Shown: piece after piece, positions 1 through 55,189 of the stretch
Layout: every line of letters begins with the position of its first letter
Numbering within the stretch: position 1 is the first letter of the stretch
Source: a virus
Virus record (IMG/VR): IMGVR_UViG_3300005264_000009
Location: 1-64,000 of that record
DNA length: 64,000 nt
Reading direction: 5' to 3' (one strand)
Translations under genes and position numbers: made by a program
The notes under the pieces: model-generated
What the model was told of the DNA's origin: nothing
Databases searched by the model: none
The model's input: only the letters and a program-made list of their open reading frames with translations

Positions 1-85
1 TTGGTTTGGTAATAGCTTGGCTTGGCTTGGCAATAGCTGGGCTTGGCTTGGTAATAGCTGGGCTTGGCTTGGCTTGGTAATAGTT
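1..85. repeat. GCTTGG-type tandem repeat
   Basis: The first 85 bases are a degenerate tandem array of TTGGC/TTGGT units punctuated by four TAATAG or CAATAG spacers. The composition is G/T-rich, unlike the surrounding AT-rich DNA. It ends about 35 bases before the first gene and probably continues upstream of the window. Function is unknown. Confidence 0.85.
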
Positions 86-976: not shown

Positions 977-985
977 GAGGAAGTT

Positions 986-1096
986 ATGGGTGATTTTGAA
1001 GTGGAATTTGGGAATATAGTATTTGATGATAGTTTTGGTAGTTTTGAGGAAGAAGTGGAAGAGAATGATTTTGAAATATATGCAACGGAGGAATAA
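986..1096 (+). CDS. tiny acidic protein
   Basis: A 36-residue ORF with an excellent ribosome binding site (ATAGGAGGAAGTT before ATG). The product is very acidic, rich in Glu, Asp and Phe, with almost no basic residues. This composition resembles DNA mimics or small inhibitory phage peptides, but it is too short for a family assignment. It lies directly downstream of the ADP-ribosyltransferase-like gene with nine bases between them. Confidence 0.5.
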   Translation: MGDFEVEFGNIVFDDSFGSFEEEVEENDFEIYATEE

Positions 1097-1136
1097 CGCA
1101 TATATTTTGAAAATAATTTAATTGTTTTATGGTTAT

Positions 1137-1162
1137 GGTGATTGCCAATGTGAAATATCACC
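1137..1162 (+). promoter_or_regulatory. GGTGAT...ATCACC leader hairpin
   Basis: Inverted repeat GGTGAT (1137-1142) with ATCACC (1157-1162), about 35 bases before the ATG at 1195. It is one of six related leader hairpins in the first 8.2 kb whose stem bases change in a compensating way (see findings). Confidence 0.5.
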
Positions 1163-1194
1163 AAGTTTATTAATGCACTAATTAGGAGGAAGTT

Positions 1195-1467
1195 ATGCGT
1201 ATTTCAAAAATTAGAACAATGTTAGAAGTGGCAGGTTATGCAATAAACTACAAAAACATTATTGACTGTATCGAAGATGCAGTTACAGATGTTAATGATG
1301 ACGGTACGATTACCGTCTATGGTTGGGACGAAATTTGGCAGGAGCATAAGTGTTATGAGTTTAATTTGGCTGATATAGTACATGGTCGGTTGGTACTTAA
1401 TATGGTGGGTTTTCGGACTGCATTTCAGCGTTGGCTGTTATGGAGTCGTTTGGAGCGAATGAGTTAG
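1195..1467 (+). CDS. small protein, paralog of the gene at 9637
   Basis: A 90-residue protein with a TTAGGAGGAAGTT ribosome binding site. Its N-terminus (K-I-R-T-M-L-E-V-A-G) and C-terminus (GFRTAFQRWLLWSRLER) match those of the 158-residue protein encoded at 9637 (V-K-K-M-L-E-M-A-G; GFKTSMQRFLLWQYIER). That longer paralog carries an extra zinc-type tail. No known domain recognised. It sits just before the first of the repeated hairpin modules. Confidence 0.75.
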   Translation: MRISKIRTMLEVAGYAINYKNIIDCIEDAVTDVNDDGTITVYGWDEIWQEHKCYEFNLADIVHGRLVLNMVGFRTAFQRWLLWSRLERMS

Positions 1468-1486
1468 ATTTTGAATTATGCTTTAT

Positions 1487-1535
1487 CATTCGGCATTCTT
1501 GAAAAAGGGTGTCGAATGAGTTTTATTTTTTTATT
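1487..1535 (+). terminator. repeat hairpin A1 followed by T-rich DNA
   Basis: CATTCGGCATTCTT (1487-1500), GAAA loop, AAGGGTGTCGAATG (1505-1518). As RNA this is a 14-bp stem with three G-U pairs and a GNRA tetraloop. It is followed at 1521 by a T-rich run, so it could act as an intrinsic terminator. Five further copies lie at 1766, 2248, 2663, 3112 and 3539. Confidence 0.65.
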
Positions 1536-1572
1536 TAAAGGAATTAGCATTTAGTTAATTTTTTTAAATAAA
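1531..1572 (+). repeat. repeat stem B (ATTTAA-GGAATTA)
   Basis: Immediately after hairpin A comes a second inverted repeat of the form ATTTAAAGGAATTA ... TAATTTTTTTAAAT. The same element recurs near 2293, 2708, 3155 and 3590, each time between hairpin A and the next leader. Other copies read TAATTCCTTTAAAT on the 3' side, restoring full pairing. Confidence 0.5.
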
Positions 1573-1654
1573 TGAATAAAATAAAAATTAAATCTCAATT
1601 TGAATTTGCATTCGGCATTCTCAAAAAAGGGGGTTTAAAATTTGGAGGATGATT

Positions 1655-1750
1655 ATGAAAGATGAAATTATTGAATTGTTGGAATGCATCGGAACAGTAG
1701 GTGCATTTCTAATGATGGAAGTTTCATTTATCCTTGCGATTGCAGGATAA
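1655..1750 (+). CDS. 31-residue membrane peptide
   Basis: A short ORF with the standard leader of this region (TTTGGAGGATGATT before ATG). Residues 13-31 are hydrophobic (GAFLMMEVSFILAIAG), compatible with a single membrane helix after an acidic N-terminus. It is flanked on both sides by copies of the intergenic hairpin modules, like its neighbours, which supports a real gene. Function unknown. Confidence 0.5.
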   Translation: MKDEIIELLECIGTVGAFLMMEVSFILAIAG

Positions 1751-1765
1751 ATGAAACTTGATTCG

Positions 1766-1797
1766 CATTCGGCATTCTAAGAAAAGGGTGTCGAATG
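1766..1797 (+). terminator. repeat hairpin A2
   Basis: Second copy of the CATTCGGCATTC...GGGTGTCGAATG hairpin. The loop here reads AAGAA instead of GAAA. It is followed by T-rich sequence. Confidence 0.6.
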
Positions 1798-1899
1798 ATG
1801 TTTTATTTATTATTTTTTATTATTTTTTATTAAATTCTCAATTTGAGTTTGCATTCGGCATTCTTAGAAAAGGGGGTTTAAAATTTGGAGGAATTGAAA

Positions 1900-2235
1900 A
1901 TGAGTAAATTTGAAAAAATGTTGGAAAAGATGGAAATGAATAAAGTTAATGAAAATTTAACAGTTGAGCATTCTGAATGGGAAAGCAAAACTGGTAGTAC
2001 CATAGCAATGCACATTCAGTGGGAGGGTGCATCTGAGTGGGAAATGGCAGAATTTGATGAATTTTTAAAATGCGGGGATGGAACAGCATCTTGCACAAAC
2101 ACTTATGAAATGATAGATGGGAAGGAAGTTCAAGGATGCTGGGCAACATATCCTTTATTGAAGTGTGTCTCTCAAACGGGATGCACTGGAGTTTTTAAAC
2201 CACCATGTAAATGGTGTTCATATTTGAGAGAATAA
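1900..2235 (+). CDS. small Cys-rich protein of a diverged local family
   Basis: 111 residues. I take the ATG at 1900, 8 bases after GGAGG, rather than the TTG at 1885 that overlaps it. A central stretch H-I-Q-W...E-M-A-E-F-D-E-F-L resembles positions in the proteins at 2410, 3276 and 3767 (hydrophobic-x-W or M, then E-x-x-E-F-x-x-F), suggesting strongly diverged paralogs. Six cysteines lie in the C-terminal half, ending CKWC. Flanked by the repeated intergenic modules. Function unknown. Confidence 0.7.
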   Translation: MSKFEKMLEKMEMNKVNENLTVEHSEWESKTGSTIAMHIQWEGASEWEMAEFDEFLKCGDGTASCTNTYEMIDGKEVQGCWATYPLLKCVSQTGCTGVFKPPCKWCSYLRE

Positions 2236-2247
2236 AATATGGTGTAT

Positions 2248-2279
2248 CATTCGGCATTCTTGAAAAAGGGTGTCGAATG
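2248..2279 (+). terminator. repeat hairpin A3
   Basis: Exact copy of hairpin A1 (CATTCGGCATTCTT, GAAA, AAGGGTGTCGAATG), then T-rich DNA and stem B at about 2293-2332. Confidence 0.65.
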
Positions 2280-2409
2280 ATGTTTTATTTTTTTATTTAA
2301 GGGAATTAAATGCTAATTCCTTTAAATAAATGAATAAAAATTAAATTTCATTTTGGGTTTGCATTCGGTGGATTCAAAAAAGGGGATTTAAAAATTGGAG
2401 GAAATGATT

Positions 2410-2652
2410 ATGTTGAATATTATAGCAACCAGAATGGATGACAAAATGCGAGTGCAGATGGTTGGGATTTTGAGCAATGCTAAAGAGGAAAAAAGATTCA
2501 AAGCATTTTGTAAGGGGCAGTTGGTCTATTGGCTGTATGACAAAAATACCAAAAAAGGATATGCCGAGAAAAATCTGTACATAAATGACATTTGGTGCAA
2601 GAAATTGTACTGTGTGAGGGGATGCAGGATTAAGCCTATGCCCTTACCTTAA
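2410..2652 (+). CDS. hypothetical protein
   Basis: 80 residues. The start is the second ATG of the ATGATTATG motif, 8 bases after GGAGG. The first ATG at 2404 would sit only two bases from the ribosome binding site. The protein is basic, with a segment EEKRFKAFCK resembling the E-x-x-F-x-x-F region of neighbours and a CYS-x2-basic end. No domain recognised. It is flanked by intergenic modules. Confidence 0.65.
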   Translation: MLNIIATRMDDKMRVQMVGILSNAKEEKRFKAFCKGQLVYWLYDKNTKKGYAEKNLYINDIWCKKLYCVRGCRIKPMPLP

Positions 2653-2662
2653 ATATGGTTAT

Positions 2663-2694
2663 CATTCGGCATTCTTGAAAAAGGGTGTCGAATG
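2663..2694 (+). terminator. repeat hairpin A4
   Basis: Exact copy of hairpin A1, followed by TTTTTGTTGGTTT and a stem B copy near 2708-2750. Confidence 0.65.
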
Positions 2695-2776
2695 AGTTTT
2701 TGTTGGTTTATTTAAGGGAATTAGCATTCGGTTAATTCCTTTAAATAAATGAATAAAAAAATCTCAATTTGAATTT

Positions 2777-2878
2777 ACATAGTGTATTTTCAAAAAAAGG
2801 GGTTTAAATGGTTTGTTGTGGGATGACCTGGCATTTACGCCGAATAACATGACCACATAATTAAAAAGGAGAATGATT
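2777..2878 (+). promoter_or_regulatory. duplicated structured leader D1
   Basis: About 100 bases that recur almost unchanged at 3664-3766. The core folds as GTGG-G-ATG ... CAT-GA-CCAC enclosing GGC-ATTTAC-GCC. It ends 5 bases before AAGGAG and the ATG. The same loop sequence GCATTTACGC appears again at 5880 in the leader of the gene at 5921. Confidence 0.5.
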
Positions 2879-3094
2879 ATGATAAATCTATATTCAAGAT
2901 GTTGGACAGAGAATTACATTGAAGGATTTGCAAGAAATATTAAATGTGAAAGGTGTGGGAAAGATGCGAGATGGACGCTACATGGTAAATCAAAAACATT
3001 GCATGATACTTGGACAATATGCAACAAGTGTTGTGAAATGTTTCATAAAGAATATAAACGAAGTATTCCTGCATTTTTAGGTGATGCAGGATAA
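2879..3094 (+). CDS. small zinc-ribbon-like protein
   Basis: 71 residues, starting at the second ATG of ATGATTATG, 7 bases after AAGGAG. It has two CxxC pairs (C-E-R-C near residue 24 and C-N-K-C near residue 50) spaced like a small zinc ribbon, plus a following C. It is basic overall. A nucleic-acid or protein-binding adaptor is plausible, but no specific family is recognised. Confidence 0.65.
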   Translation: MINLYSRCWTENYIEGFARNIKCERCGKDARWTLHGKSKTLHDTWTICNKCCEMFHKEYKRSIPAFLGDAG

Positions 3095-3111
3095 TTTGGA
3101 TTTGCATTCGG

Positions 3112-3143
3112 CATTCGGCACTCTTAGAAAAGGGTGTCGAATG
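3112..3143 (+). terminator. repeat hairpin A5
   Basis: CATTCGGCACTCTT, AGAA loop, AAGGGTGTCGAATG. Compared with A1 one G-U pair becomes an A-U or C-G type match, so pairing is kept despite base changes. A partial extra CATTCGG copy precedes it at 3105. Confidence 0.6.
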
Positions 3144-3275
3144 ATCTTTTGTTTTTTTATTTAAGGGAATTAAAATGTTAGTTCTTTTAAATAAATGAAT
3201 AAAAATTAAATTTCAATTTGGATTTGCATTCGGCATATTCAAAAAAAGGGATTTAAAATTTGGAGGGAATTGATT

Positions 3276-3527
3276 ATGAGTGAAAATCTTTTAAAGAAAA
3301 AAGAATGTTGGTCAAAGTGGAATGTAGGGGTAGGGCATACACTTACCATGCAGATCAACAAAAGAAGGGCAAATACTGCTGAGAATGCAGAGTTTGAGGC
3401 ATTTGCCCTTAAATGTGGAGAAAGTAAGAATGGTAGTACAGGAAAGACATGGGCTGTCTTGAATGTTTTAGACCAATCATATCGGGAGCATTTAGGGAGT
3501 GAATATGACTCCCGATATGATAATTAA
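3276..3527 (+). CDS. hypothetical protein of the diverged local family
   Basis: 83 residues, start ATG at 3276 preceded by TTTGGAGGGAATTGATT. The middle reads T-L-T-M-Q-I ... E-N-A-E-F-E-A-F, matching the pattern in the proteins at 1900 and 3767. No known domain. It is bracketed by copies of the intergenic modules. Confidence 0.65.
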   Translation: MSENLLKKKECWSKWNVGVGHTLTMQINKRRANTAENAEFEAFALKCGESKNGSTGKTWAVLNVLDQSYREHLGSEYDSRYDN

Positions 3528-3538
3528 AATTGAGTTTA

Positions 3539-3570
3539 CATTCGGCACTCTTAGAAAAGGGTGTCGAATG
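3539..3570 (+). terminator. repeat hairpin A6
   Basis: Same as A5 (CATTCGGCACTCTT, AGAA, AAGGGTGTCGAATG), followed by CTTTTTATGTTTTATTTTTT and stem B. Confidence 0.6.
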
Positions 3571-3663
3571 CTTTTTATGTTTTATTTTTTTATTTAAGGG
3601 AATTATCACTTGGCATTTAATTCCCTTACATAAGTAAATAAAAATTAAATTCCAATTTGAATT

Positions 3664-3766
3664 TACATAGTGTATTTTCAAAAAAAGGGGTTTAAATGGT
3701 TTGTTGTGGGAGGACTTGGCATTTACGCCGAATAACATGACCACATAATTAAAAAGGAGAATGATT
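3664..3766 (+). promoter_or_regulatory. duplicated structured leader D2
   Basis: Near-identical second copy of the leader at 2777-2878 (two visible base differences in the GTGGGA(T/G)GAC(C/T)TGG part). It ends at the ribosome binding site of the gene at 3767. Confidence 0.5.
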
Positions 3767-4045
3767 ATGATGACAGAAAAAGAATATGTAATGTGTTGTG
3801 AGATCGTGAAAAACAATAGAGAATGGAACTTATGTGCATACCATTCTAATGATTATAATGCCATGATAATTGAATGGCATGTGGATTATAATAAAAGTTC
3901 AACCGATGAGATTAATGAATTTGAAAGATTCATCAATCTCATTGGGGAGTATAGAGACAGTACCCGTTATCTATGCACATTAATAGATGATGATGATGGG
4001 GAAATGGATTGTGGATGCATAGAGTTCCACATTCCCGATTTTTAA
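3767..4045 (+). CDS. hypothetical protein of the diverged local family
   Basis: 92 residues. ATG at 3767 (or the adjacent 3770) is chosen over 3761 because of ribosome-binding-site spacing. It contains I-I-E-W-H-V ... E-I-N-E-F-E-R-F-I, the shared family pattern, followed by an acidic segment DDDDGEMDCGC. It is the last gene before a clear intrinsic terminator. Unknown function. Confidence 0.65.
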   Translation: MMTEKEYVMCCEIVKNNREWNLCAYHSNDYNAMIIEWHVDYNKSSTDEINEFERFINLIGEYRDSTRYLCTLIDDDDGEMDCGCIEFHIPDF

Positions 4046-4050
4046 AAGAT

Positions 4051-4097
4051 GAAAAGCCTTGTGGCATTTGCTGCAGGGCTTTTCGTGTTTTCGTTTT
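4051..4097 (+). terminator. rho-independent terminator
   Basis: Stem GAAAAGCCTTGTGG (4051-4064), loop CATTTG, CTGCAGGGCTTTTC (4071-4084), then GTGTTTTCGTTTTTAT. A second version with a better stem lies at 6435. Confidence 0.75.
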
Positions 4098-4119
4098 TAT
4101 ATTGCCAGAAAATGGTGTC

Positions 4120-4146
4120 GATGGCTACCTATTGGAAAATGCCATC
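4120..4146 (+). promoter_or_regulatory. GATGGC...GCCATC leader hairpin
   Basis: GATGGC (4120-4125) pairs with GCCATC (4141-4146), with TACC...AAAAT between. Same family as 1137, 4294, 5342, 7297 and 8114. Confidence 0.55.
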
Positions 4147-4176
4147 ATTTTATTTCAAATTTAGGGGATTTGAACT

Positions 4177-4269
4177 ATGAATGCTTTTGAAGACATAATG
4201 ATATGTGCTACAAATTCTGTAGCATTTATTTTTATCTTTGTTCTCATTTTGTTCTATTTTGGGGCATAA
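4177..4269 (+). CDS. 30-residue membrane peptide
   Basis: A short ORF after TTAGGGGATTTGAACT, closely matching the leader of the gene at 5396. Residues 14-29 are strongly hydrophobic (VAFIFIFVLILFYFG), a clear single membrane span. It is flanked by two copies of the GATGGC hairpin. Probably a small membrane peptide; role unknown. Confidence 0.5.
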   Translation: MNAFEDIMICATNSVAFIFIFVLILFYFGA

Positions 4270-4293
4270 TGAGAACAGGGGTTTAAAGGTTTT

Positions 4294-4319
4294 GATGGCT
4301 ACCTATGGAAAATGCCATC
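4294..4319 (+). promoter_or_regulatory. GATGGC...GCCATC leader hairpin
   Basis: Second GATGGC/GCCATC hairpin, 27 bases before the ATG at 4346. Confidence 0.55.
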
Positions 4320-4345
4320 ATTAAAATTTTATCGGAGGAATTATT

Positions 4346-4522
4346 ATGAGTTTTTTTGGCGGAGTGGCTGAATGGGCAGATGCTACAACACCATCTGTTG
4401 AATTACCATCTCATGAATGCCCTTGTTGTGAACTAAATGTTTATGATGAGGATTTTCGTGAGATGGGAAGTGATGAACCAGTTTGTAAGCATTGTTTTGA
4501 TGCTTTACAAAGTGATGAATAA
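4346..4522 (+). CDS. small CxxC protein
   Basis: 58 residues with a TCGGAGGAATTATT ribosome binding site. C-P-C-C near residue 26 and C-K-H-C near residue 48 give a treble-clef or rubredoxin-like four-Cys metal site. It is acidic elsewhere. No family recognised. Confidence 0.65.
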   Translation: MSFFGGVAEWADATTPSVELPSHECPCCELNVYDEDFREMGSDEPVCKHCFDALQSDE

Positions 4523-4528
4523 ATCTCA

Positions 4529-4557
4529 TTTTGGGAATGCATTCGGTATTCCCAAAA
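4529..4557 (+). promoter_or_regulatory. leader hairpin C (perfect 10-bp stem)
   Basis: TTTTGGGAAT (4529-4538), loop GCATTCGGT, ATTCCCAAAA (4548-4557), 18 bases before GGAGG and the ATG at 4585. It belongs to the module C leaders (1589, 1833, 2347, 3205, 4918), in which the stem varies but the loop GCATTCGG is kept. Confidence 0.55.
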
Positions 4558-4584
4558 AAAGGGTTTTAAAAATTGGAGGAAATT

Positions 4585-4914
4585 ATGTGTATCAAAACAG
4601 ATGTTAATGAAATTTTTGCAAATCTTCCCATTCCTGAAACAAAGAATGAGGAAGATATATTCGGTGCGACAATAATGTTGCATCGTATAATTAATGAAAA
4701 TGGTACTGATATAAATATGGATGAAATATGGAGTATGGAAAGAATGATACTGCCATTGATATGCAGATTACATAATAATGAGAAGTTGTTCTTTGATGGT
4801 TATTATGCCATTAAGGAATGCCTCAAAAAACACATTCAGGTACAGAATGCTAAACTGGTATTGGAAAATGCTAAACTGGTATTGGAAAATGCCAAAAAAG
4901 CATTAAATAAATAA
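4585..4914 (+). CDS. hypothetical protein with C-terminal heptad-like repeat
   Basis: 109 residues, start ATG at 4585 after GGAGGAAATT. The C-terminus repeats N-A-K-L-V-L-E-N-A-K-L-V-L-E-N-A-K-K-A-L, from a 24-base direct repeat at about 4847-4894. This forms an obvious amphipathic helix, perhaps for oligomerisation. The body is acidic and helical with no known domain. Confidence 0.65.
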   Translation: MCIKTDVNEIFANLPIPETKNEEDIFGATIMLHRIINENGTDINMDEIWSMERMILPLICRLHNNEKLFFDGYYAIKECLKKHIQVQNAKLVLENAKLVLENAKKALNK

Positions 4915-4917
4915 ATT

Positions 4918-4962
4918 AAATCTCATTTTGGGAGTGCATTGTGTGTTGCCAAAATGAGATTT
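4918..4962 (+). promoter_or_regulatory. leader hairpin C (perfect 14-bp stem)
   Basis: AAATCTCATTTTGG (4918-4931) pairs perfectly with CCAAAATGAGATTT (4949-4962), with a 17-base loop. It ends 10 bases before GGAGG. It starts within the stop region of the preceding gene and could separate the two transcripts or gate translation of the secreted protein at 4984. Confidence 0.6.
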
Positions 4963-4983
4963 AAAAATTTGGAGGAAATGATT

Positions 4984-5316
4984 ATGGGTAAGAGATTCAA
5001 AAAAATGATTTTAATTGGTGTTATGGGATTGAGCTTGGCATTTCCAAGTACATTAGTGTCGTATGCAGATGAGCTTGTAAATGTAATTCTGCTGAAAGAT
5101 GCTTATAAAATTGAAGATGAATATGGTAAAACAGTTACCATAATTGAATGTTATGAAAAGAGAATGATACAGGGTCATATGTATCATAAGGAAATGGAAT
5201 TGCTTGGTTTTGGTAAACAGGCATTAATGACAGAAGAGAAGAAAAAAGGGATGAGGATTGAATGTATTATTGAGAAAAGTAATCATTCATATAGTATATT
5301 AAAAATCATAAAATAA
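4984..5316 (+). CDS. small secreted or periplasmic protein
   Basis: 110 residues. The ATG at 4984 follows GGAGGAAATGATT. It begins with a textbook Sec signal peptide: basic MGKRFKK, a hydrophobic core (MILIGVMGLSLAF), then a likely signal-peptidase site after V-S-Y-A (residue 28). The mature part is about 82 residues, basic, with no recognised domain. It is the only clear exported protein in the window. Superinfection exclusion or host-envelope action would be plausible, but this is not shown. Confidence 0.75.
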   Translation: MGKRFKKMILIGVMGLSLAFPSTLVSYADELVNVILLKDAYKIEDEYGKTVTIIECYEKRMIQGHMYHKEMELLGFGKQALMTEEKKKGMRIECIIEKSNHSYSILKIIK

Positions 5317-5341
5317 ATGGATTAATGGTTTTGATGGTTTT

Positions 5342-5368
5342 GATGGCTACCAATTTTAAAATGCCATC
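5342..5368 (+). promoter_or_regulatory. GATGGC...GCCATC leader hairpin
   Basis: Third exact GATGGC/GCCATC pair, 27 bases upstream of the ATG at 5396 and preceded by a duplicated GGTTTTGATGG. Confidence 0.55.
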
Positions 5369-5395
5369 ATAAATTCAAATTTAGGGGATTTGAAA

Positions 5396-5704
5396 ATGCG
5401 TTTTGAGTTTACAGGAAAAACCAAAATGATGGGTAATGTCATTTTGAAACAAATTTATGATCCACGTTCCATTAAAGTTGGCGGATGGATTGAAAAGAGA
5501 GAAAACCTGATTGAGAATGCATGGATTTCTGGGAATGCCTGCATTTTTGGAAATGCGATAGCATCTGGTTTTTCTCAAATTTCTGGAAATGCAAGTGTTT
5601 CTGGAAATGCTACCATTTCAGGTGATGCTGTTGTTAGAAATATGATAGTGAATGGTAGTACGGTAATAAATGGTTCAAAAATATTTAAATGTAGGAGGAG
5701 TTAA
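5396..5704 (+). CDS. short left-handed beta-helix protein
   Basis: 102 residues, start ATG at 5396. It has the same N-terminal cap as the proteins at 6542, 7352 and 8165: a F-x-F-T-G-K-T strand, then GGWIEKRENL. The cap is followed by about eight hexapeptide turns of the type I-S-G-N-A. It is much shorter than its paralogs (239-287 residues), so it may be a truncated or minimal version. The fold is that of hexapeptide acyltransferases, but no catalytic His or CoA site is visible, so a structural or binding role is more likely. Confidence 0.75.
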   Translation: MRFEFTGKTKMMGNVILKQIYDPRSIKVGGWIEKRENLIENAWISGNACIFGNAIASGFSQISGNASVSGNATISGDAVVRNMIVNGSTVINGSKIFKCRRS

Positions 5705-5754
5705 AATGACTTGTTATGTTGCTAAATAAAACTTTAAAAAAATAAAAAAATAGC

Positions 5755-5783
5755 TTGACTTCCCTTGTATAGTGTGCTATAAG
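5755..5783 (+). promoter_or_regulatory. sigma70-type promoter
   Basis: TTGACT (5755-5760), 17-base spacer ending TGTGC, TATAAG (5778-5783), giving an extended -10. It drives the gene at 5921 through a leader of about 130 bases that contains GCATTTACGC. Confidence 0.85.
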
Positions 5784-5920
5784 GAAGCCAAACAATAAAA
5801 TTTATTGGTTATACTAATTGACCAGCATTCTCAAATGTGGGAAGCAAATAATATTATTAGAAAAGGGTATTAATTCCCTTGCATTTACGCAAAAAATTAA
5901 AATTAAAAAAGGAAATGATT

Positions 5921-6430
5921 ATGAAATTTTTAGCCGTTTATACATCAAAAGAGGCAATCGAAACAGGCAAATGTGCAATGTTAAGACTTTTAGAATGGGA
6001 TGATTTTTATCCCATGCACAACAAATTATTTGGAACAGGTCAAGTTTACACAGCACCCAATGATAGCCGATATTATTGGGAGAAAAATGGTAAAAATGTT
6101 GTTGAATTAGAGTTAAATGAGATGAACGGTCAAAGTGTTGCATGGCATTCATGCGGTGGAAATAGTATAGCGTACCAACATACATATATAAATGGTGTGG
6201 AGTGTATGCTTGTATGCATTAAATCAAGGAGGCATGGCATTCCTTGCAGTGCAATGAAGGGTTTTGAACCATCGGAGGTCATTTATTATAAAAGTAGTGC
6301 CGAATGGTGGGGTCCATTTGACACGCTGGATGATCATCCAAATGATAAAGAACTTTTTGAACCACCTTCCGAATGGGAGGATGGTGATGAATATAGCGAT
6401 CCAAAGAAAGAGAGAATGAGTCGCTTTTAA
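5921..6430 (+). CDS. hypothetical protein
   Basis: 169 residues. The ATG at 5921 follows AAAGGAAATGATT. An upstream in-frame ATG at 5879 has no ribosome binding site. Soluble, Trp-rich and acidic at the C-terminus (E-W-E-D-G-D-E). No domain recognised. It is the only gene between its own promoter (5755) and a strong terminator (6435), so it appears to be a single-gene transcription unit. Confidence 0.75.
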   Translation: MKFLAVYTSKEAIETGKCAMLRLLEWDDFYPMHNKLFGTGQVYTAPNDSRYYWEKNGKNVVELELNEMNGQSVAWHSCGGNSIAYQHTYINGVECMLVCIKSRRHGIPCSAMKGFEPSEVIYYKSSAEWWGPFDTLDDHPNDKELFEPPSEWEDGDEYSDPKKERMSRF

Positions 6431-6434
6431 AAAT

Positions 6435-6482
6435 GAAGAGCCTTGTGGCATTTGCCACAGGGCTTTTCGTGTTTTCGTTTTT
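6435..6482 (+). terminator. rho-independent terminator
   Basis: GAAGAGCCTTGTGG (6435-6448), loop CATTTG, CCACAGGGCTTTTC (6455-6468), then GTGTTTTCGTTTTT. It is nearly identical to the one at 4051. Confidence 0.85.
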
Positions 6483-6541
6483 ATTTAAAGGAATTAATTA
6501 TGAATGTAAAATTCACTGGAAAGTTTAAAAGGAGAATGGTT

Positions 6542-7261
6542 ATGAATTTTAATTTTACAGGAAAAACAATGGAAGTAGCATACACAACAGTTCACCAGAT
6601 TGAAAGAGATGGTGAAATTGGTGGATGGATTGAACATATACATAATATCAGTGGTAATGGGTGGGTTACTGATGATGCTTGTGTGATGGGCAATGCTTGT
6701 GTGATGGGTGATGCCGTTGTAAGTGGTAAAGCCATCATAATGGACAGTGCCATCATTAAAGGCAATGCACATGTTATGGGTAATGTGTGCATTAAACATT
6801 ATGCAGTCATCGATGAATTTACATATATAAAAGATCATTGTGTAATAGGTGGTAATGCCATTATACAGGGAAATGCTATTATTGAAGGAAATACATTTAT
6901 TTCTGACAATGTTGAAGTTTTTGGTATGGCAAGAATTTCAGGAAACAATCATATAAATGACAAAGTGAAAATTCATGGGCATTCTCAAATTTTAGGTCAT
7001 GCTTGTATTTTTGAAAATGCAAGAATTTTTGAAAATTGTACAATTCGGGAACAAGCATCTGTTTCTGGGAATGCAAAAATACAAGGAAATGCTATTATTG
7101 AAGGAAATGCAGAAATAAACGATGAAAGTATCGTTTCAGGAATTGCTAAAGTACACGGAAATGCCAAAGTATCAGGGCATTCTTATGTGTCAAAAAATTC
7201 ACACATATTTGGAAGTGCTATTGTTAAAAACGAAAATATTATGGGTAAAGTAATGTTTTAA
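6542..7261 (+). CDS. left-handed beta-helix protein
   Basis: 239 residues. I choose ATG 6542, behind AAAAGGAGAATGGTT, because its N-terminus then aligns with its paralogs (F-x-F-T-G-K-T-M-E). The in-frame ATG at 6500 adds M-N-V-K-F-T-G-K, a partial copy of the same cap. After GGWIEHIHN the protein is about 30 turns of hexapeptide repeat (G-N-A-x-I/V-x). No acyltransferase residues seen. A phage beta-helix protein of unknown ligand. Confidence 0.8.
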   Translation: MNFNFTGKTMEVAYTTVHQIERDGEIGGWIEHIHNISGNGWVTDDACVMGNACVMGDAVVSGKAIIMDSAIIKGNAHVMGNVCIKHYAVIDEFTYIKDHCVIGGNAIIQGNAIIEGNTFISDNVEVFGMARISGNNHINDKVKIHGHSQILGHACIFENARIFENCTIREQASVSGNAKIQGNAIIEGNAEINDESIVSGIAKVHGNAKVSGHSYVSKNSHIFGSAIVKNENIMGKVMF

Positions 7262-7296
7262 ATAGTGATTTAAAATTATGGTTTTATAATGGTTAT

Positions 7297-7323
7297 GGTG
7301 GTTACCTATTTTAAAATGCCACC
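7297..7323 (+). promoter_or_regulatory. GGTGGT...GCCACC leader hairpin
   Basis: GGTGGT (7297-7302) with GCCACC (7318-7323), 29 bases before the ATG at 7352. Compared with GATGGC/GCCATC the inner base pair has changed on both sides (A-T to G-C). Confidence 0.6.
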
Positions 7324-7351
7324 AAAAAAATAATTTAAAAGGAGAATGATT

Positions 7352-8071
7352 ATGAGTTTTACATTTACAGGAAAAACTATGGAAGTGAATGGCAGAAAAG
7401 TACGACAAATTGAAAAAGATGGCATTATAGGAGGGTGGATTCAGAAAAGAGAAAACCTAATTGAGAATGCATGGGTAAGTGAAAATGCATGTGTATATGG
7501 TAAAGCTGTAATTTCTGGAAATGCTGTAATTTCTGGAAATGCACTTGTTAGTAATAGTGCAATGGTTATGGGAAATGCTTGTATTAGAGAGAATGCTTGC
7601 ATTAAACATTATTGTACTATTTGCGATAGTGCTGTAATTTCGGGGGATGCTGTAATAGGTGATAATGCACATATAGCAGGATATACGATTATTTGTGCAG
7701 ATGCATATGTATTCGGGGATGTAGAAATATCAGGTAATGCAAGAATTTTGGGGAATGCACATATTACTGGGAATGCTATTATTCGTGGTAATGCAAATAT
7801 TTTAGATTATGCAAAAATATTTGGAAATGCTGAAATTTTTGAAAATGCAAAAGTATTGGGAAATGCAGATGTTTCGGGGTGTTCAAAAATATTTGGGTAT
7901 GCCGTTATTGATGGTAATGCTGTTATATCTAATAATGCAATAATTTCTGGGGCATCTCATATTTATGGGGATGCCGAAGTTTCTGGGCATTCTTATGTGT
8001 CAAGAAACTCATTTATATTTGGTAGTTCCAAAATAAAAAATGAAGTTATTTTAGATAAAACAATGGGTTAA
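7352..8071 (+). CDS. left-handed beta-helix protein
   Basis: 239 residues from ATG 7352 (second ATG of ATGATTATG, after AAAAGGAG). The cap is S-F-T-F-T-G-K-T-M-E-V then GGWIQKRENLIENAWV, followed by continuous hexapeptide turns (I-S-G-N-A-V) to near the C-terminus, which ends in a short unrelated tail. It is the closest relative of the proteins at 5396 and 6542. Soluble, likely trimeric by family analogy. Function unknown. Confidence 0.8.
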   Translation: MSFTFTGKTMEVNGRKVRQIEKDGIIGGWIQKRENLIENAWVSENACVYGKAVISGNAVISGNALVSNSAMVMGNACIRENACIKHYCTICDSAVISGDAVIGDNAHIAGYTIICADAYVFGDVEISGNARILGNAHITGNAIIRGNANILDYAKIFGNAEIFENAKVLGNADVSGCSKIFGYAVIDGNAVISNNAIISGASHIYGDAEVSGHSYVSRNSFIFGSSKIKNEVILDKTMG

Positions 8072-8113
8072 AATAACTTCTAAAATGACTTCTAATATTA
8101 GGTAAATGGTTAA

Positions 8114-8139
8114 GGTGGTTACCATTTTAAAATACCACC
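8114..8139 (+). promoter_or_regulatory. GGTGGT...ACCACC leader hairpin
   Basis: GGTGGT (8114-8119) with ACCACC (8134-8139), perfectly paired, 25 bases before the ATG at 8165. Confidence 0.6.
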
Positions 8140-8164
8140 AAATTAATTTTAAAGGAGAATGATT

Positions 8165-9028
8165 ATGCTTTATGCTTTTACTGGAAAAACAATGATTCAT
8201 CATGGTGTATTATTACAACAAATTATTAAAACCAAAACAAATGAAATTGGAGGATGGATTGAGGGCGAACATAACCTCCTTGGTGATGCTTGGGTAGATG
8301 ACCAAGCAAAAGTATGGGGAAATGCTCGAATTGATGGGTCAGCATTAATTTTTGGTAATGCTTGGGTTTTTGGGAATGCTAAAATAACAGGGAATGCCCA
8401 AATTTTTGAGAATGCCCAAGTTTTTGGGAATGCAAGAATTTTTGAAAATGCGAATATTTTTGGATGTGCAAGAGTAACAGATGCACTTGTTGATGGTAAT
8501 GCCATCATTAATGGTAATGTGAATGTAATGAGTAAAGCCGAAATTTGTGAAAATGCAAAAATTTCGGGTAATACATTAATTCAAGAAAATGCTTACGTGG
8601 GTGGGCATGCAAATATATTTGGAAATGCAAAAATACAAGGAAATGCCTTTGTAGATGGGCATGCAAACGTATTTGAAAGTGCATTGGTTTTTGGAAATGC
8701 AAGAGTTGGCGGGAAATCCTATGTATGTGGAGATACCAAATTGACAGGTAGATGTAATGTAAGAGGTAATGCTTTTATTACAGGAAAAGCTACTATTTAT
8801 GGTGATTCAACTATTGCAGAAAATGCTCGTGTAATGGGAAGTGCAAGAATTGGTGAAAACGCTTTTATTTATGAGAATGCCGTAATTTTTGGAAACGCTC
8901 ATATTAAAGGTGATGCAAGGGTTTTCGGAACAGTAAATGTGTTTGGTAATACTATTATTATAAATAAAGTATTAAGTGGTAATTGTAACATTTCAAATGA
9001 TGCAGATTTAGATTCATACAATTTCTAA
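8165..9028 (+). CDS. left-handed beta-helix protein
   Basis: 287 residues, ATG 8165 after AAAGGAGAATGATT. Longest of the four clustered beta-helix proteins, with roughly 38 hexapeptide turns after the F-T-G-K-T cap and GGWIEGEHNLLGDAWV. The repeats favour I-F-G-N-A and V-F-G-N-A. The C-terminus (D-A-D-L-D-S-Y-N-F) resembles the end of the next protein (A-D-L-N-S-D-N-F), hinting at recombination between gene ends. Confidence 0.8.
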   Translation: MLYAFTGKTMIHHGVLLQQIIKTKTNEIGGWIEGEHNLLGDAWVDDQAKVWGNARIDGSALIFGNAWVFGNAKITGNAQIFENAQVFGNARIFENANIFGCARVTDALVDGNAIINGNVNVMSKAEICENAKISGNTLIQENAYVGGHANIFGNAKIQGNAFVDGHANVFESALVFGNARVGGKSYVCGDTKLTGRCNVRGNAFITGKATIYGDSTIAENARVMGSARIGENAFIYENAVIFGNAHIKGDARVFGTVNVFGNTIIINKVLSGNCNISNDADLDSYNF

Positions 9029-9057: not shown

Positions 9058-9084
9058 GGGCTGGCATCCCGAACTGCCGAAAGG
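9058..9084 (+). promoter_or_regulatory. candidate pseudoknot leader E1
   Basis: GGGCTGGCATCCC is a 3-bp hairpin whose loop GGCA can pair with TGCC five bases downstream (9075-9078), just before AAGG and the ATG at 9093. The element is repeated at 9602 with TGCT, which keeps pairing as G-U. Confidence 0.45.
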
Positions 9085-9601: not shown

Positions 9602-9628
9602 GGGCTGGCATCCCGAACTGCTGAAAGG
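9602..9628 (+). promoter_or_regulatory. candidate pseudoknot leader E2
   Basis: GGGCTGGCATCCC, GAAC, TGCT, GAAAGG. Second copy of E1, upstream of the ATG at 9637. The preceding 35 bases (TTTCTAAATCAAATAT...) are also shared. Confidence 0.45.
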
Positions 9629-9636
9629 TTTTTAAA

Positions 9637-10113
9637 ATGAATACATTAAAAGTAAAAAAGATGTTAGAAATGGCTGGTGAGGCAATGCACTTTAAAAACA
9701 TTTTGCAAAATTTAGAAAACATCACATTTGATACATGTGCAGAAGATAAATATGAAGGTGATGCATACTATACCATTATGATAAATGGTTATAGTGATTA
9801 TTTCGATCAAATGCAGGAGGTTTATTTCAACAAGGAAAATGTGGCTATGGGATTAGGGATTTTACATAAATCAGGTTTTAAAACATCTATGCAAAGATTT
9901 CTACTTTGGCAATACATTGAAAGAAATGAAAGAAATGGAAATATTTGCACCGAAAAATCAAATACACATAGGATTAAAAAATGCAAAAATTGTAAAAAAT
10001 ATTTTTGTGATGAATGTGGTAATGTGTACAAAAAAACAAAAATTCCTGAAAATGTTGAAATGTTGGATGAAAAAGGCATTTGTAATAAATGTTGGAATAA
10101 AATAAAAAAATAA
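9637..10113 (+). CDS. zinc-tailed paralog of the gene at 1195
   Basis: 158 residues. Residues 1-95 match the 90-residue protein at 1195 (K-M-L-E-M-A-G at the start, GFKTSMQRFLLWQYIER at the end). Residues 105-158 add C-K-N-C, C-D-E-C and C-N-K-C, a likely zinc ribbon. The fusion of this unknown helical domain to a zinc module suggests nucleic-acid or protein binding. The gene ends the module-type region. Confidence 0.75.
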   Translation: MNTLKVKKMLEMAGEAMHFKNILQNLENITFDTCAEDKYEGDAYYTIMINGYSDYFDQMQEVYFNKENVAMGLGILHKSGFKTSMQRFLLWQYIERNERNGNICTEKSNTHRIKKCKNCKKYFCDECGNVYKKTKIPENVEMLDEKGICNKCWNKIKK

Positions 10114-10398: not shown

Positions 10399-11217
10399 AT
10401 GAAAACAGAAGCTATGAAAAAAATGTTAGAGGATCAAATTTTGGTACAACTTGAAAATGGTAATGTACCATGGAAAAAGAATTGGGAGGGCATTTTAGAT
10501 GCACCAAAATCATTGAGTACAGGAAATGAGTATGGTGGGTTTAATTATTTTATGCTTGCCATGCAAAATTACGAATCCCCATTCTGGGGAACGTATAAGC
10601 AAATAAAAAATTTAAAAGGAAATGTAAAAGAGGGTGAAAAGGGAACGAAAATCACATTTTATAAAACAGTGGTAAAAAATAAAGATACCGATGATGAGGA
10701 AAGATTCGGTTTGCTTAGATATTTCAATGTATTTAATGTTGACCAATGCGAAAATGTAAAAATACCCAAAAGATTTGAGCCTGAAGTAAATGAAACAGAA
10801 AATGATTATATAGAAAATTGCGAAAGTGTAATTTCAGGGTATAAAGATTGCCCTGAAATTAAATTTGGCATGAACCCTTGTTATATCCCATCAAAAGATA
10901 TTGTCGGAATGCCAAAGATAAACCAATTCCAAACTGCATCTGATTATTATGATGCGATGTTCCATGAGTTTGGGCATAGCACAAAAAGTAATTTTAGACT
11001 GACACGGAATGTAAGTAAAGACAGGGAGGAAATGGTAGCAGAATTTTGTTCATTTTATCTTTGTGCAATGACAGGAATTGAATCAGCCGTAATTGAAAAT
11101 CAAGCGGCATATATTAAAGGATGGAGTAAGAAAATCAAAGAGGATACAGGAATGATATTGCAGTGTAGTTCAATGGGTTGGAAAGCATCGCAATATATTC
11201 TTGGAAAACATTTATAA
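10399..11217 (+). CDS. ardC: ArdC-type antirestriction protein
   Basis: 272 residues. ATG 10399 is six bases after GGGAG. The N-terminal half has the ArdC ssDNA-binding domain pattern (I-L-V-Q-L-E-N-G-N-V-P-W, then G-N-E-Y-G-G-F-N, L-K-G-N-V-K-E-G-E-K-G). The C-terminal half is a zincin-like metallopeptidase with FHEFGHS (HExxH) near residue 195 and a downstream E-E-M-V-A-E-F as third ligand. ArdC proteins protect incoming DNA from restriction. It has its own tandem promoters and conserved leader, consistent with early expression, and is followed by a DUF1874-like gene, suggesting an anti-defence unit. Confidence 0.85.
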   Translation: MKTEAMKKMLEDQILVQLENGNVPWKKNWEGILDAPKSLSTGNEYGGFNYFMLAMQNYESPFWGTYKQIKNLKGNVKEGEKGTKITFYKTVVKNKDTDDEERFGLLRYFNVFNVDQCENVKIPKRFEPEVNETENDYIENCESVISGYKDCPEIKFGMNPCYIPSKDIVGMPKINQFQTASDYYDAMFHEFGHSTKSNFRLTRNVSKDREEMVAEFCSFYLCAMTGIESAVIENQAAYIKGWSKKIKEDTGMILQCSSMGWKASQYILGKHL

Positions 11218-12330: not shown

Positions 12331-12550
12331 TGACAAAATAATTTCTTTGGAGCATAGCCTCACAAAAACATTTGACTATAATGGCTGTGAAAATTGTAAT
12401 AATAATCTTGGAAATGATGTTTATACAACAAAAGCATATTTCGACAATTTCAAAGATTATTATATTATTCAACTTTGCCATGAATGCTTGTGTGCATGGC
12501 ATAATGCTGAAGTATTGGATAAAAACTGTAAAAACACTTTTGAAATGTAA
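12317..12550 (+). CDS. small Cys-rich protein
   Basis: 77 residues. ATG 12317 follows AGAGGAGGAA inside the previous gene. C-E-N-C at residue 25 and C-H-E-C near residue 55 form a probable four-Cys zinc site. Unknown role. The in-frame stop overlaps no neighbour, and the next gene starts 12 bases on. Confidence 0.7.
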   Translation: MKINNDKIISLEHSLTKTFDYNGCENCNNNLGNDVYTTKAYFDNFKDYYIIQLCHECLCAWHNAEVLDKNCKNTFEM

Positions 12551-12561
12551 TGGGGGTTATT

Positions 12562-13056
12562 ATGAATTGTGAGTGTAAACATTTTGCTAATACTGTTAAG
12601 TGTGAATGTGGGCATCTTTTTTGTCAATGTTGTTCTGTTAATGTATCATTTATGCAAGAATGGGAAGACGATTCAGATTATCTTATATGTCCTAAATGTG
12701 GGGTTGATTTTTATTGTAAATGCCCTGAACAATTAAAAAAATATAAAGCTCATTATGACGGAGAAAATGGGGATGGTTACCACATTTTAAGTAAAAAAAT
12801 GGAAGTACCTAAATTTTTTGATAAAGCAAAATTAGTAAAAGAAAATGACATATATTATTATGTTGATAAATATAATGTTTTAGTAGCACCATTTGGTTGG
12901 TATGTAAATTCAGTTGTTTATTTTACAAAACATTTTAATCCAGTAAATGCCACCATTGAATTTACAGATGGTTTAAATGGTTATTATAAAAAAAAGGAAG
13001 TTAATGTAGATGATGTTTTAAAAATCTGGGAAGTGATAAATGACGATAAAGAATAA
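12562..13056 (+). CDS. zinc-finger-like protein
   Basis: 164 residues, ATG 12562 preceded by GGGGGTTATT. The N-terminal 60 residues hold about ten Cys/His (CECKH, CEC, CQCC, CPKC, CKC), like a RING-type or double zinc-ribbon knuckle. The C-terminal part is mixed alpha/beta without known motif. In the same frame just past the stop, a further 28 codons read as plausible protein up to 13145, so the current stop may be recent. Confidence 0.7.
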   Translation: MNCECKHFANTVKCECGHLFCQCCSVNVSFMQEWEDDSDYLICPKCGVDFYCKCPEQLKKYKAHYDGENGDGYHILSKKMEVPKFFDKAKLVKENDIYYYVDKYNVLVAPFGWYVNSVVYFTKHFNPVNATIEFTDGLNGYYKKKEVNVDDVLKIWEVINDDKE

Positions 13057-39801: not shown

Positions 39802-40790
39802 AGAAAAAACCATGTTTAAAATTAACAGGTGATTTGGGAGATTATTTAGGTGATTTTAATAAATCAGAACTTATTTGTTATTCAGGATTACCAAAGGTTG
39901 GTAAGAACTTCGTTTTATTAGAACATTTTAAACAAGCTATTTTACAAAAGAAAAAGGTTGTCTTTTTTTCTAATAAAATGACAGAGGATGATATTTTACG
40001 TAGAATTAATAAGTTATTTGTACCAATGGTAGATGAGGAAGGTTTTTACCATCAACCTGTTTTTGATTGCATAGATAATCAAAATGGAAAGTGTGATAAT
40101 AGAGCATCTACTGTAGTTGTTTTGGATGATGGTGAATTATCACATTGTAAAAGACATGAACCTTGTGTAAAATGTAAAGGTAAATCATATGATTATAAAG
40201 AGTCTGTTTATCATGTTCCTATTTTTCGTGAGAGTGAAAATATAGATACAATTAGAAAATATATACCAGATTTGAAAATATTAAATACATATGGTCGTGT
40301 ATGTGTTTACCCTAAATACACATTAAAATATGATGATATTTTCAAAGAATTACGAGCATTAGCAAATAATAACTTCTTTGCAGATATTATAATTGTAGAT
40401 TATGCTGATATTTTACAACTGGATGATAAATATATTAGTAAACCAGATTTTATTTGGAAAGCACTATCAGATCTTGCTAAATTAACTAATAGTTTAGTGA
40501 TAACTGTAACACAAGCTAATAAAAAAGCCTTTGAAAGTTATAAACAAGTAAGTAGTGAATTTTATCCCGATAATGAATATATTGATTTTATGTGTGGTTT
40601 ATTCGCTAATAATGAGGAAAAACAACAAGGGGTTTTAAATTTTAGTATAACAAAGTCAAAAAATAAAATATATAATAAAACATGTACTGTTTTACAAGAT
40701 TTAAGTGCAGGACAAGTTGTGTTAGATTCTTACACCAATAATTCTCAAAATATTTTTGCTCCTTTTAATAAAAAGAACTTGACAGATTGA
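39798..40790 (+). CDS. degenerate DnaB-like paralog
   Basis: 330 residues, aligned with the C-terminal core of the upstream helicase: Walker A region G-L-P-K-V-G-K-N (the Thr/Ser of GKS/T is Asn), V-D-Y-A-D-I-L, V-T-Q-A-N-K-K-A-F, and the same Cys cluster (N-Q-N-G-K-C, C-V-K-C). It lacks the N-terminal domain. Probably a duplicated subunit with weakened ATPase function, acting with or on the helicase. The altered P-loop also removes the site used by the intein. Confidence 0.75.
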   Translation: MKKKPCLKLTGDLGDYLGDFNKSELICYSGLPKVGKNFVLLEHFKQAILQKKKVVFFSNKMTEDDILRRINKLFVPMVDEEGFYHQPVFDCIDNQNGKCDNRASTVVVLDDGELSHCKRHEPCVKCKGKSYDYKESVYHVPIFRESENIDTIRKYIPDLKILNTYGRVCVYPKYTLKYDDIFKELRALANNNFFADIIIVDYADILQLDDKYISKPDFIWKALSDLAKLTNSLVITVTQANKKAFESYKQVSSEFYPDNEYIDFMCGLFANNEEKQQGVLNFSITKSKNKIYNKTCTVLQDLSAGQVVLDSYTNNSQNIFAPFNKKNLTD

Positions 40791-50013: not shown

Positions 50014-50038
50014 CTTTTTAATAAAAACGTGTTATACG
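50010..50038 (+). promoter_or_regulatory. sigma70-type promoter
   Basis: TTGACT (50010-50015), spacer TTTTAATAAAAACGTGT, TATACG (50033-50038). The -35 overlaps the end of the antirepressor-like gene. Confidence 0.85.
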
Positions 50039-54232: not shown

Positions 54233-54286
54233 GTTTAATTGACCATTAATGAGTCCAACAAACAAAAAAATTTAAAGGAGAATAAC

Positions 54287-55189
54287 ATGAGTTTTAGAGA
54301 CAGAATGAGAAAAAAAAGAAAAAGTATTAGTACAAGACACCAAAAAACACAAAAAAAAAGTGGTAGTAGATTCCCTACATTTTTTAAAAAAGAAGCAATA
54401 CCAGAAGGTATTGAATTTTTTACATCCAAAGAGGGTGAGCACATAATTGATATAATCCCTTGGGAGGTTGGTAAAGATATGCCTTTTGACGAAAATGATC
54501 AACCAATTACAGAGGAGGGTGATCTGGATTATGTTTTGGATTTAGAAGTCCATATGAATGTGGGTTCTATGAAAGCACCTTTTATTTGCCCTTATGAAAA
54601 TTTTGGTAAACCTTGTCCTATTTGTGAGTATATAAAGGCAAATAGATTGCCAAAGGAAGAGTGGTCAGCATTAAGAACAAAACGAAGAGTTTTATATCTT
54701 GTATGGGTACATGACAGTCGTGAGGAAGAGAAAAAAGGTTTACAAATTTTTCACGCTTCACATTATCTTATGGAAGAAAAACTTGCAGAAGTTGCAAAAT
54801 TACCAAGAGGTGGTGGTTACGAAGAGTTTTCGGATTTCGATAATGGTAAATCTATTGTTTGGACAAGAAAAGGGGCTGGTAGAGATACAACATATATTGG
54901 ACATAAATTAATTGATAGAGATAGAAAAATACCTGATGCTATTTTAGATAAAGCATTCCCTCTTGATAGTATTGTAAAAATGCACCCAACATATGAAGAA
55001 ATAGATTCAGCTTTTCACGGCACATCTGAATCTGATGAAGCTCCTTATATTGAACAACAAGAAGAAGAAACAAAACCATCTCGCAGACGTAAAAAGAAAA
55101 AGAAAAAAACTGTAAGAACATATGAACCTGTAGATGAACCTACAGAGGAAGACTATGAAGATTATGATGATGATGACATACCATTTTAA
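54287..55189 (+). CDS. ssb: single-stranded DNA-binding protein (gp32-like)
   Basis: 300 residues from ATG 54287 (TTAAAGGAGAATAAC). Basic N-terminus, OB-fold region around F-T-S-K-E-G-E-H-I-I-D-I-I-P-W, zinc-type C-P-Y-E ... C-P-I-C, and a long acidic tail ending D-D-D-D-I-P-F. That tip is the classic SSB protein-interaction motif (also in bacterial SSB). It binds ssDNA at forks and during recombination. Confidence 0.85.
   Translation: MSFRDRMRKKRKSISTRHQKTQKKSGSRFPTFFKKEAIPEGIEFFTSKEGEHIIDIIPWEVGKDMPFDENDQPITEEGDLDYVLDLEVHMNVGSMKAPFICPYENFGKPCPICEYIKANRLPKEEWSALRTKRRVLYLVWVHDSREEEKKGLQIFHASHYLMEEKLAEVAKLPRGGGYEEFSDFDNGKSIVWTRKGAGRDTTYIGHKLIDRDRKIPDAILDKAFPLDSIVKMHPTYEEIDSAFHGTSESDEAPYIEQQEEETKPSRRRKKKKKKTVRTYEPVDEPTEEDYEDYDDDDIPF

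Follow-up and report, generated by a model that had tools for sequence, protein, structure and literature searches.

The stretch of virus DNA considered here, called the window below, comprises the first 64 kb (64,000 nucleotides) of the 87,209-bp virus record IMGVR_UViG_3300005264_000009. Its left arm carries an array of twelve small open reading frames (ORFs) of 30–111 amino acids (aa), located at 986–5316 and separated by structured spacers that recur in near-identical copies. The GC content is 28%, and the Shine-Dalgarno (SD) sites are strong (GGAGG). The genes of the record are on the plus strand up to about 73 kb, followed by tail/lysis-type genes on the minus strand. As no terminal repeat was found in the 87,209-bp record, we regard it as a fragment. 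Among deposited phages, nothing matches the array region at the DNA level, a convincing family match was obtained for none of the twelve ORFs, and the best identity of the family A DNA polymerase to known phage polymerases is about 24%.

All twelve ORFs, denoted here g1 to g12, are on the plus strand. The first, g1 (986–1096), encodes an acidic peptide of 36 aa and is preceded by GGAGG. It is followed by g2 (1195–1467, 90 aa), a paralog of the gene at 9637–10113 (phmmer 3.5e-12; a stronger pair than g4 and g7, and one not named in the preliminary description), and by g3 (1655–1750, 31 aa). The g4 (1900–2235, 111 aa) and g7 (3276–3527, 83 aa) products are paralogs as well, with the phmmer E-value of 9e-5 and the alignment score of 71 against the shuffled mean of 28, and g8 (3767–4045, 92 aa) is a weak third member of this group, possibly a distant relative, and is unrelated to g6. 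In the preliminary description of this DNA, made from the sequence alone, the genes at 1900, 2410, 3276 and 3767 were considered to be diverged paralogs. This holds for 1900 and 3276 and weakly for 3767, but the relationship of g5 (2410–2652, 80 aa), an ORFan, to g4 and g7 is not detectable. Another ORFan is g11 (4585–4914, 109 aa). CxxC pairs are seen in the sequences of g6 (2879–3094, 71 aa), where they are zinc-ribbon-like and yield only weak sub-threshold matches, and g10 (4346–4522, 58 aa). The g9 gene (4177–4269) encodes a hydrophobic peptide of 30 aa, and g12 (4984–5316, 110 aa) has a signal-peptide-like N-terminus. The AlphaFold2 models of g4 and of the 9637 protein (predicted local distance difference test scores 65 and 56, respectively) are too weak to assign a function, and a Foldseek search with the g4 model yielded nothing significant.

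The spacer modules, likewise on the plus strand, span approximately 1.1–8.2 kb, between small genes without a convincing homologue. The array had been placed at 1.0–5.4 kb; that stretch stands, but its end point does not, as the modules continue beyond it. The spacers from g2 to g8 contain up to three hairpins in the fixed order A, B, C. Hairpin A has a GC-containing stem of 13–18 pairs, with a U-rich run after it. It is present in six terminator-like copies, as had been counted: 1486–1519, 1766–1797 (in a spacer lacking B), 2244–2283, 2662–2695, and two copies of the second variant, 3112–3143 and 3539–3570. Hairpin B is an AT-rich stem of 24–28 pairs, its 5' arm including the U-run, and its five copies (1521–1581 with 27 pairs, 2283–2339, 2697–2759, 3147–3204, 3580–3643) also agree with the earlier count. 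The stems of B are kept while its loops differ in length and sequence. The leader hairpin C, a two- or three-part stem ending about 8 nt before the SD site, is recurrent, as noted before, although the number of copies is eight rather than about six: 1588–1638, 1830–1881, 2341–2391, 2759–2805, 3206–3256, 3645–3695, 4520–4568 and 4916–4964, the last one being the strongest (22 bp, z −5.8). Two of the eight, at 2759 and 3645, bear an extra structured block D, delineated at 2809–2855 and 3697–3743 by the repeat family and its fold; the two D leaders are 95% identical over 132 nt.

Rightward of the A-B-C zone, C is replaced by G-family and F leaders, and A is replaced by the terminator T2. The G family comprises the GATGGC-type hairpins, six of which were found where several had been reported: 1136–1163 (GGTGAT/ATCACC), 4119–4147, 4293–4320, 5341–5369, 7296–7324 (GGTGGT/GCCACC) and 8113–8140 (GGTGGT/ACCACC). 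There are two copies of T2 (4049–4086 and 6433–6470; 92% over 60 nt in the comparison with 6425–6484) and two of the F leader (9058–9084 and 9602–9628; 85% over 106 nt). The F leader, T2 and two promoter modules, P1 and P2, were not in the preliminary list. The spacers repeat every two genes, at intervals of 865–888 nt. When one spacer was compared with the whole record, all 13 matches fell within 1.5–6.5 kb, and in the comparison of the regions upstream of 144 gene starts long shared leaders were concentrated in 1–15 kb; the segments shared at 50029, 58818, 62724 and 64452 are shorter.

The spacers and the genes differ in their histories. The spacer copies are 85–95% alike, while the nucleotide identity of the flanking genes, 46–55%, is at the level of shuffled sequences, so the initial impression of recurring spacers around very different coding parts is borne out. 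For the two D leaders the global nucleotide identity is 0.94, whereas the genes behind them, g6 and g8, have 0.46 versus 0.51 for shuffled sequences. A leader of 127–135 nt is common to unrelated genes. The same pattern of similar modules and dissimilar genes is seen in the F, T2, C1/C2, C3/C5 and C2/C5 comparisons: the F leader is 85% alike ahead of the unrelated genes 9093 and 9637, and T2 is 92% alike behind unrelated genes. In the g4/g7 pair, the nucleotide similarity of the genes is gone and their leaders are still 85% alike. Conversely, the paralogs 1195 and 9637 are preceded by different leaders. At the level of sequence, these comparisons show that structured spacer modules, repeated two to eight times, vary independently of the genes to which they belong.

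An alternative is that the array is a single fast-diverging protein family under diversifying selection, the spacers being passive remnants of duplications. The paralog pairs 1900/3276 and 1195/9637, with 3767 joining weakly, speak for this explanation. However, g1, g3, g5, g6 and g9–g12 have no convincing mutual relation, and the products are of mixed types, two with CxxC pairs, two hydrophobic peptides of about 30 aa and one with a signal-like N-terminus, and we regard this explanation as very improbable.

The five full spacers were also compared with each other. The A sites group S5 with S6, while the B and C sites mostly group S3 with S5 and S4 with S6. Compatibility between neighbouring sites is above that obtained under permutation (p = 0.015), the test being based on 15 informative sites in five spacers, some of them linked through base pairing. 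Such conflicting ancestries of spacer segments are what recombination within spacers would leave, with the caveats that gene conversion and base-pair linkage of sites may contribute to the signal.

These data bear on the explanation by shared functional constraint, that is, that the spacers are alike because of selection for termination and leader folding, and the genes were duplicated in tandem and diverged in place, with no swapping. The paralogy of g4 and g7, the two-gene period of the spacers and the preservation of the B stems with variable loops agree with it. On the other hand, the D leaders retain their similarity over 132 nt that are partly unpaired, with dissimilar genes behind them; no relationship is seen between g5/g6 and g7/g8, although the period would make them counterparts; and within the same spacers the groupings from A and from C are in conflict. 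We consider this explanation unlikely, although it is the strongest of the alternatives.

The modules are predicted to be strongly structured. In 1–16 kb, 17 terminator-like sites were found, compared to 4.9 expected from shuffles, with the A copies ranking near the top in strength; T2 is terminator-like as well. The spacers containing both A and B fold at −39 to −49 kcal/mol (z from −8.3 to −11.7 relative to shuffles). In the G family, three of the seven pairs are changed on both sides with the pairing kept, and the covariation score was reached by only one of 500 shuffles. The reading of such compensatory changes as evidence of function at the RNA level only was not adopted, as template switching at palindromes can alter both arms together. 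No spacer matched Rfam at the gathering score, the matches below it being spurious ones to microRNA models.

Candidate machinery for recombination between the spacers is encoded in the same genome. The gene at 55198–56319 (plus strand) encodes a UvsX-like recombinase (phrog_97, 6e-39; Pfam RecA, 8e-18), the candidate engine of shuffling. It is preceded, on the same strand, by a gene for a gp32-like single-stranded DNA-binding protein at 54239–55189 (phrog_1192, 6e-12; PF08804, 1.2e-5, 25.8 bits with the cut-off 26.8). SbcC-type and metallophosphatase-type (SbcCD-like) genes are present too. Another explanation is that the hairpins are the targets of site-specific recombination, as in integron- or invertase-like cassette systems. 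In its favour, hairpins lie between ORF cassettes, and in a relative, considered below, the hairpin loops occur in both orientations. However, neither the 87-kb record nor any of three relatives (which are possibly fragments) yielded a tyrosine or serine recombinase, while positive controls were detected, and none of ten spacers contains attC boxes (RYYYAAC/GTTRRRY). The initial report of no integrase and no attC-like site is confirmed, and the site-specific explanation, already largely refuted, seems scarcely credible.

A search based on the DNA polymerase alignment identified a relative, G027, a 102,562-bp record whose DNA polymerase is about 54% identical to that of the window. It has 25 detectable homologs with identity up to 61% and a UvsX homolog at 59%. 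The order of its genes runs on from one end of the record to the other, the pattern of a circularly permuted genome. The counterpart of the left arm of the window is located at about 65.2–69.3 kb (65248–69292) of the G027 reverse complement. Here, a hairpin, GGTTTCCTAC-GGT/ACC-GTAGGAAACC, stands in eight copies between small ORFs, with loops in either orientation (CTACGGTGTAG or CTACACCGTAG), which suggests inversion or template switching at palindromes. For 23 proteins from the left arm of the window, no homolog was found in G027 or in six other records, and there are no spacers common to the window and G027. The layout is conserved between the two phages, and the genes and spacers are not. 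A fixed gene order with spacers diverging at the rate of genes, which had been named as the pattern arguing against cassette exchange, is not seen, as the G027 array and that of the window have neither genes nor spacers in common.

Other searches for relatives were less productive. The records of two further relatives, G022 and G023, stop before the array region. The exact hairpin A patterns matched nothing in viral contigs; with the clamp-loader and 37102 proteins, the matches were limited to a 4-kb piece of this virus and a relative at 25%; the ORFan at 5921 and the scan of genome contigs with the single-stranded DNA-binding protein yielded no relative. The hexapeptide-repeat proteins gave 28 loci, where the only DNA match to the array was one weak stretch inside a hexapeptide-repeat gene. 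A tail protein gave 38 loci, with array DNA in none of the 21 records tested; the gene of this tail protein is spread among otherwise dissimilar phages.

The layout is not without precedent. PeSLs (promoter early stem-loops) of T4-type phages were reportedly described by Arbiol et al. in 2010 and Comeau et al. in 2014. In the accounts given in PMC4503421 and PMC3950731, PeSLs are repeated near-identical promoter/stem-loop cassettes around small non-conserved ORFs, proposed to drive modular shuffling through homologous recombination. The second account (PMC3950731) also mentions HGTV-1, a haloarchaeal myovirus, where a conserved inverted-repeat motif, containing a TATA-like box and likened to PeSLs, precedes the majority of the ORFs in one part of the genome, its left arm. 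Thus the earlier statement that no phage system of this kind had been described is not upheld, since in these accounts the PeSLs and the left arm of HGTV-1 have nearly the same layout. The features of PeSLs were drawn from citing papers and titles. Common to PeSLs and the array are a stem-loop terminator in the spacer (A and T2 being terminator-like), many near-identical copies between small non-conserved ORFs, and T4-like recombination genes (UvsX/gp32-like) in the phage. Unlike PeSLs, the A-B-C spacers have no recognisable early promoter in the cassette and add the second hairpin of 24–28 bp and the leader hairpin at the SD site, and the array phage is not T4-type at the DNA level. As in HGTV-1, most left-arm ORFs follow a conserved inverted-repeat motif, but the HGTV-1 motif has the TATA-like box, and its host and genome are unrelated to those of the array phage. 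Integrons differ by the tyrosine recombinase and attC boxes, both lacking in the array. Hence, as far as the sequence tells, we classify the array as a variant working like the PeSL system and not as PeSL proper, there being no recognisable promoter in the cassette.

A possible further example of a repeated-spacer layout is Lactobacillus phage LfeInf, where largely intergenic repeats of 54–159 nt with about 80–83% identity lie between annotated genes (2039–2550 and 12397–12777).

Stable hairpins between small early genes are known in another setting. Processing of early RNA is known in SP82, and RNase III processing sites in the T7 early region were reportedly described by Dunn and Studier in 1973 (cited in PMC5371410). 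There, intergenic hairpins yield single-gene mRNAs with hairpin ends, as might happen in the array. The T7 sites, however, are not tied to gene shuffling, and for the array the similarity is one of predicted fold stability.

Taken together, the data make it fairly probable that the region is an array of accessory genes with interchangeable RNA punctuation modules doubling as recombination homology. In this reading, a large phage of the lytic type carries a hyperplastic region of accessory genes, where each small gene is flanked by a 3'-end hairpin (A or T2), the long hairpin B in most A-type spacers, and a 5' leader (C, D, G or F) that halts just short of the SD site. Long transcripts starting at promoters upstream would cover the genes. 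The A and T2 hairpins may cap and partly terminate the 3' ends, and B may be cut or serve as a barrier, by analogy with the RNase III sites of T7 early RNA, so that A and B would punctuate the transcripts into gene-sized mRNAs. The leader would keep the ribosome site open and shield the 5' end, and hence any ORF placed between the modules would be expressed. At the DNA level, the near-identical spacers may provide homology for UvsX-type recombination, which would homogenise them in the genome and allow for gene duplication, loss and exchange, as proposed for the PeSLs of T4-type phages. The two loop orientations in the G027 hairpins hint at how such homogenising might proceed. Cassette exchange guided by the spacers, as originally suggested, is supported within this genome by the shared leaders, the conflicting ancestries and the UvsX/gp32/SbcCD set; it is not shown between close relatives because the searches found none that covers the array.

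The lack of a directly seen swap is one of several points that count against this reading. The mosaic test, as noted, has few sites and spacers. The C leaders retain 93% of pairs, mostly through one-sided changes, and their covariation is not above that of shuffles and thus not significant alone. The G027 hairpins have no U-tract, and therefore termination is not the function common to both arrays. Finally, the six A hairpins stand in series with no recognisable promoters between them, an odd arrangement for one long transcript, unless there is much read-through or antitermination. Repeated extended −10 promoters were not found within 986–5316 (an unknown promoter type being possible), the first one occurring at 5755. 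The record begins within a 21-nt tandem repeat (TTGGCTTGGTAATAGCTGGGC, 3.4 copies, window positions 1–83), where the contig was probably broken, and hence an upstream promoter of the array may sit just outside the record.

In an antitermination ladder, the whole array would be opened at a set time by an antiterminator of the phage, and the dosage of each gene would follow from its position through graded read-through. Such a ladder would account for the strong A hairpins with U-rich tails and for the missing promoters. However, no antiterminator and no put- or nut-like site was identified, the absence of U-tracts in G027 does not agree with it, and the promoter scan, which showed no excess over shuffles, is blind to non-sigma-70 promoters. 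We hold it to be improbable, more so than functional constraint.

Extending the reading of RNA punctuation modules to the phage group, we tentatively suggest a dedicated accessory-gene site, with promoterless hairpin spacers homogenised in each genome and replaced between lineages. Gene cassettes would be traded via RNA punctuation, not via promoter cassettes or integrases, and the engine would be palindrome-driven template switching together with UvsX/SbcCD. This is possible, if doubtful. Accessory genes of phages, involved in host takeover and anti-defence, turn over faster than most, and the question addressed here is how a new ORF gains expression signals. The array offers a testable answer outside the T4 group, namely, standard RNA end-modules that fit any ORF and at the same time provide homology for recombination. 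Since a related phage has this layout with unrelated spacers, the conserved trait would seem to be homogenisation within a genome and not the spacer sequence.

In contrast to the array, the region to its right has several strong extended −10 promoters. The P1 module (TTGACT-17-TATAAG, plus strand) is present in three copies, at 5755 (5755–5783), 10283 and 11975, and is 91% identical over 134 nt ahead of 10399 and 12094. The core of the module (CTTGACTTCCYTTGTATAGTGTGCTATA) is nearly palindromic; in the first copy it reads CCTTGTATAG..CTATAAGG. It overlaps the −10 box and in its sequence is operator-like. The P2 promoter has two identical copies (13915 and 14842).

The array is followed on the plus strand by the first hexapeptide-repeat protein gene (5396–5704) and by an ORFan of 169 aa with no match in phages (5921–6430). 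The hexapeptide-repeat family, of the left-handed beta-helix type, occupies 5396–9028 and recurs at 47857 and 50029, several members being located behind array-type leaders. The left arm also holds an ArdC-type anti-restriction gene (10399–11217), as expected for a host-takeover region. A Pfam match to Tad3, a Thoeris inhibitor (E-value 8.5e-21), in the protein encoded at 67439–68041 of the record suggests, together with ArdC, anti-defence cargo. Elsewhere, the clamp-loader gene (DNA polymerase III delta'-like, 51214–53526) is broken by an intein with a LAGLIDADG domain. At 37102–40790, DnaB-like helicase profiles match two adjoining genes, the end of the first ORF being the start of the second, perhaps a split or duplicated helicase.

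Finally, the tetranucleotides GCAT/ATGC are about 1.9-fold over dinucleotide shuffles in 1–9 kb, in coding and spacer DNA and in all frames; the excess is 1.35-fold in 9–14 kb and about 1.1-fold or less elsewhere. As a DNA motif they were rejected, there being no longer consensus and the coding parts not exceeding the trinucleotide expectation. One B loop in the window (AATGC) is the reverse complement of GCATT in two other B loops; given that this word is common in the region, the relation is only suggestive with regard to the homogenising step.

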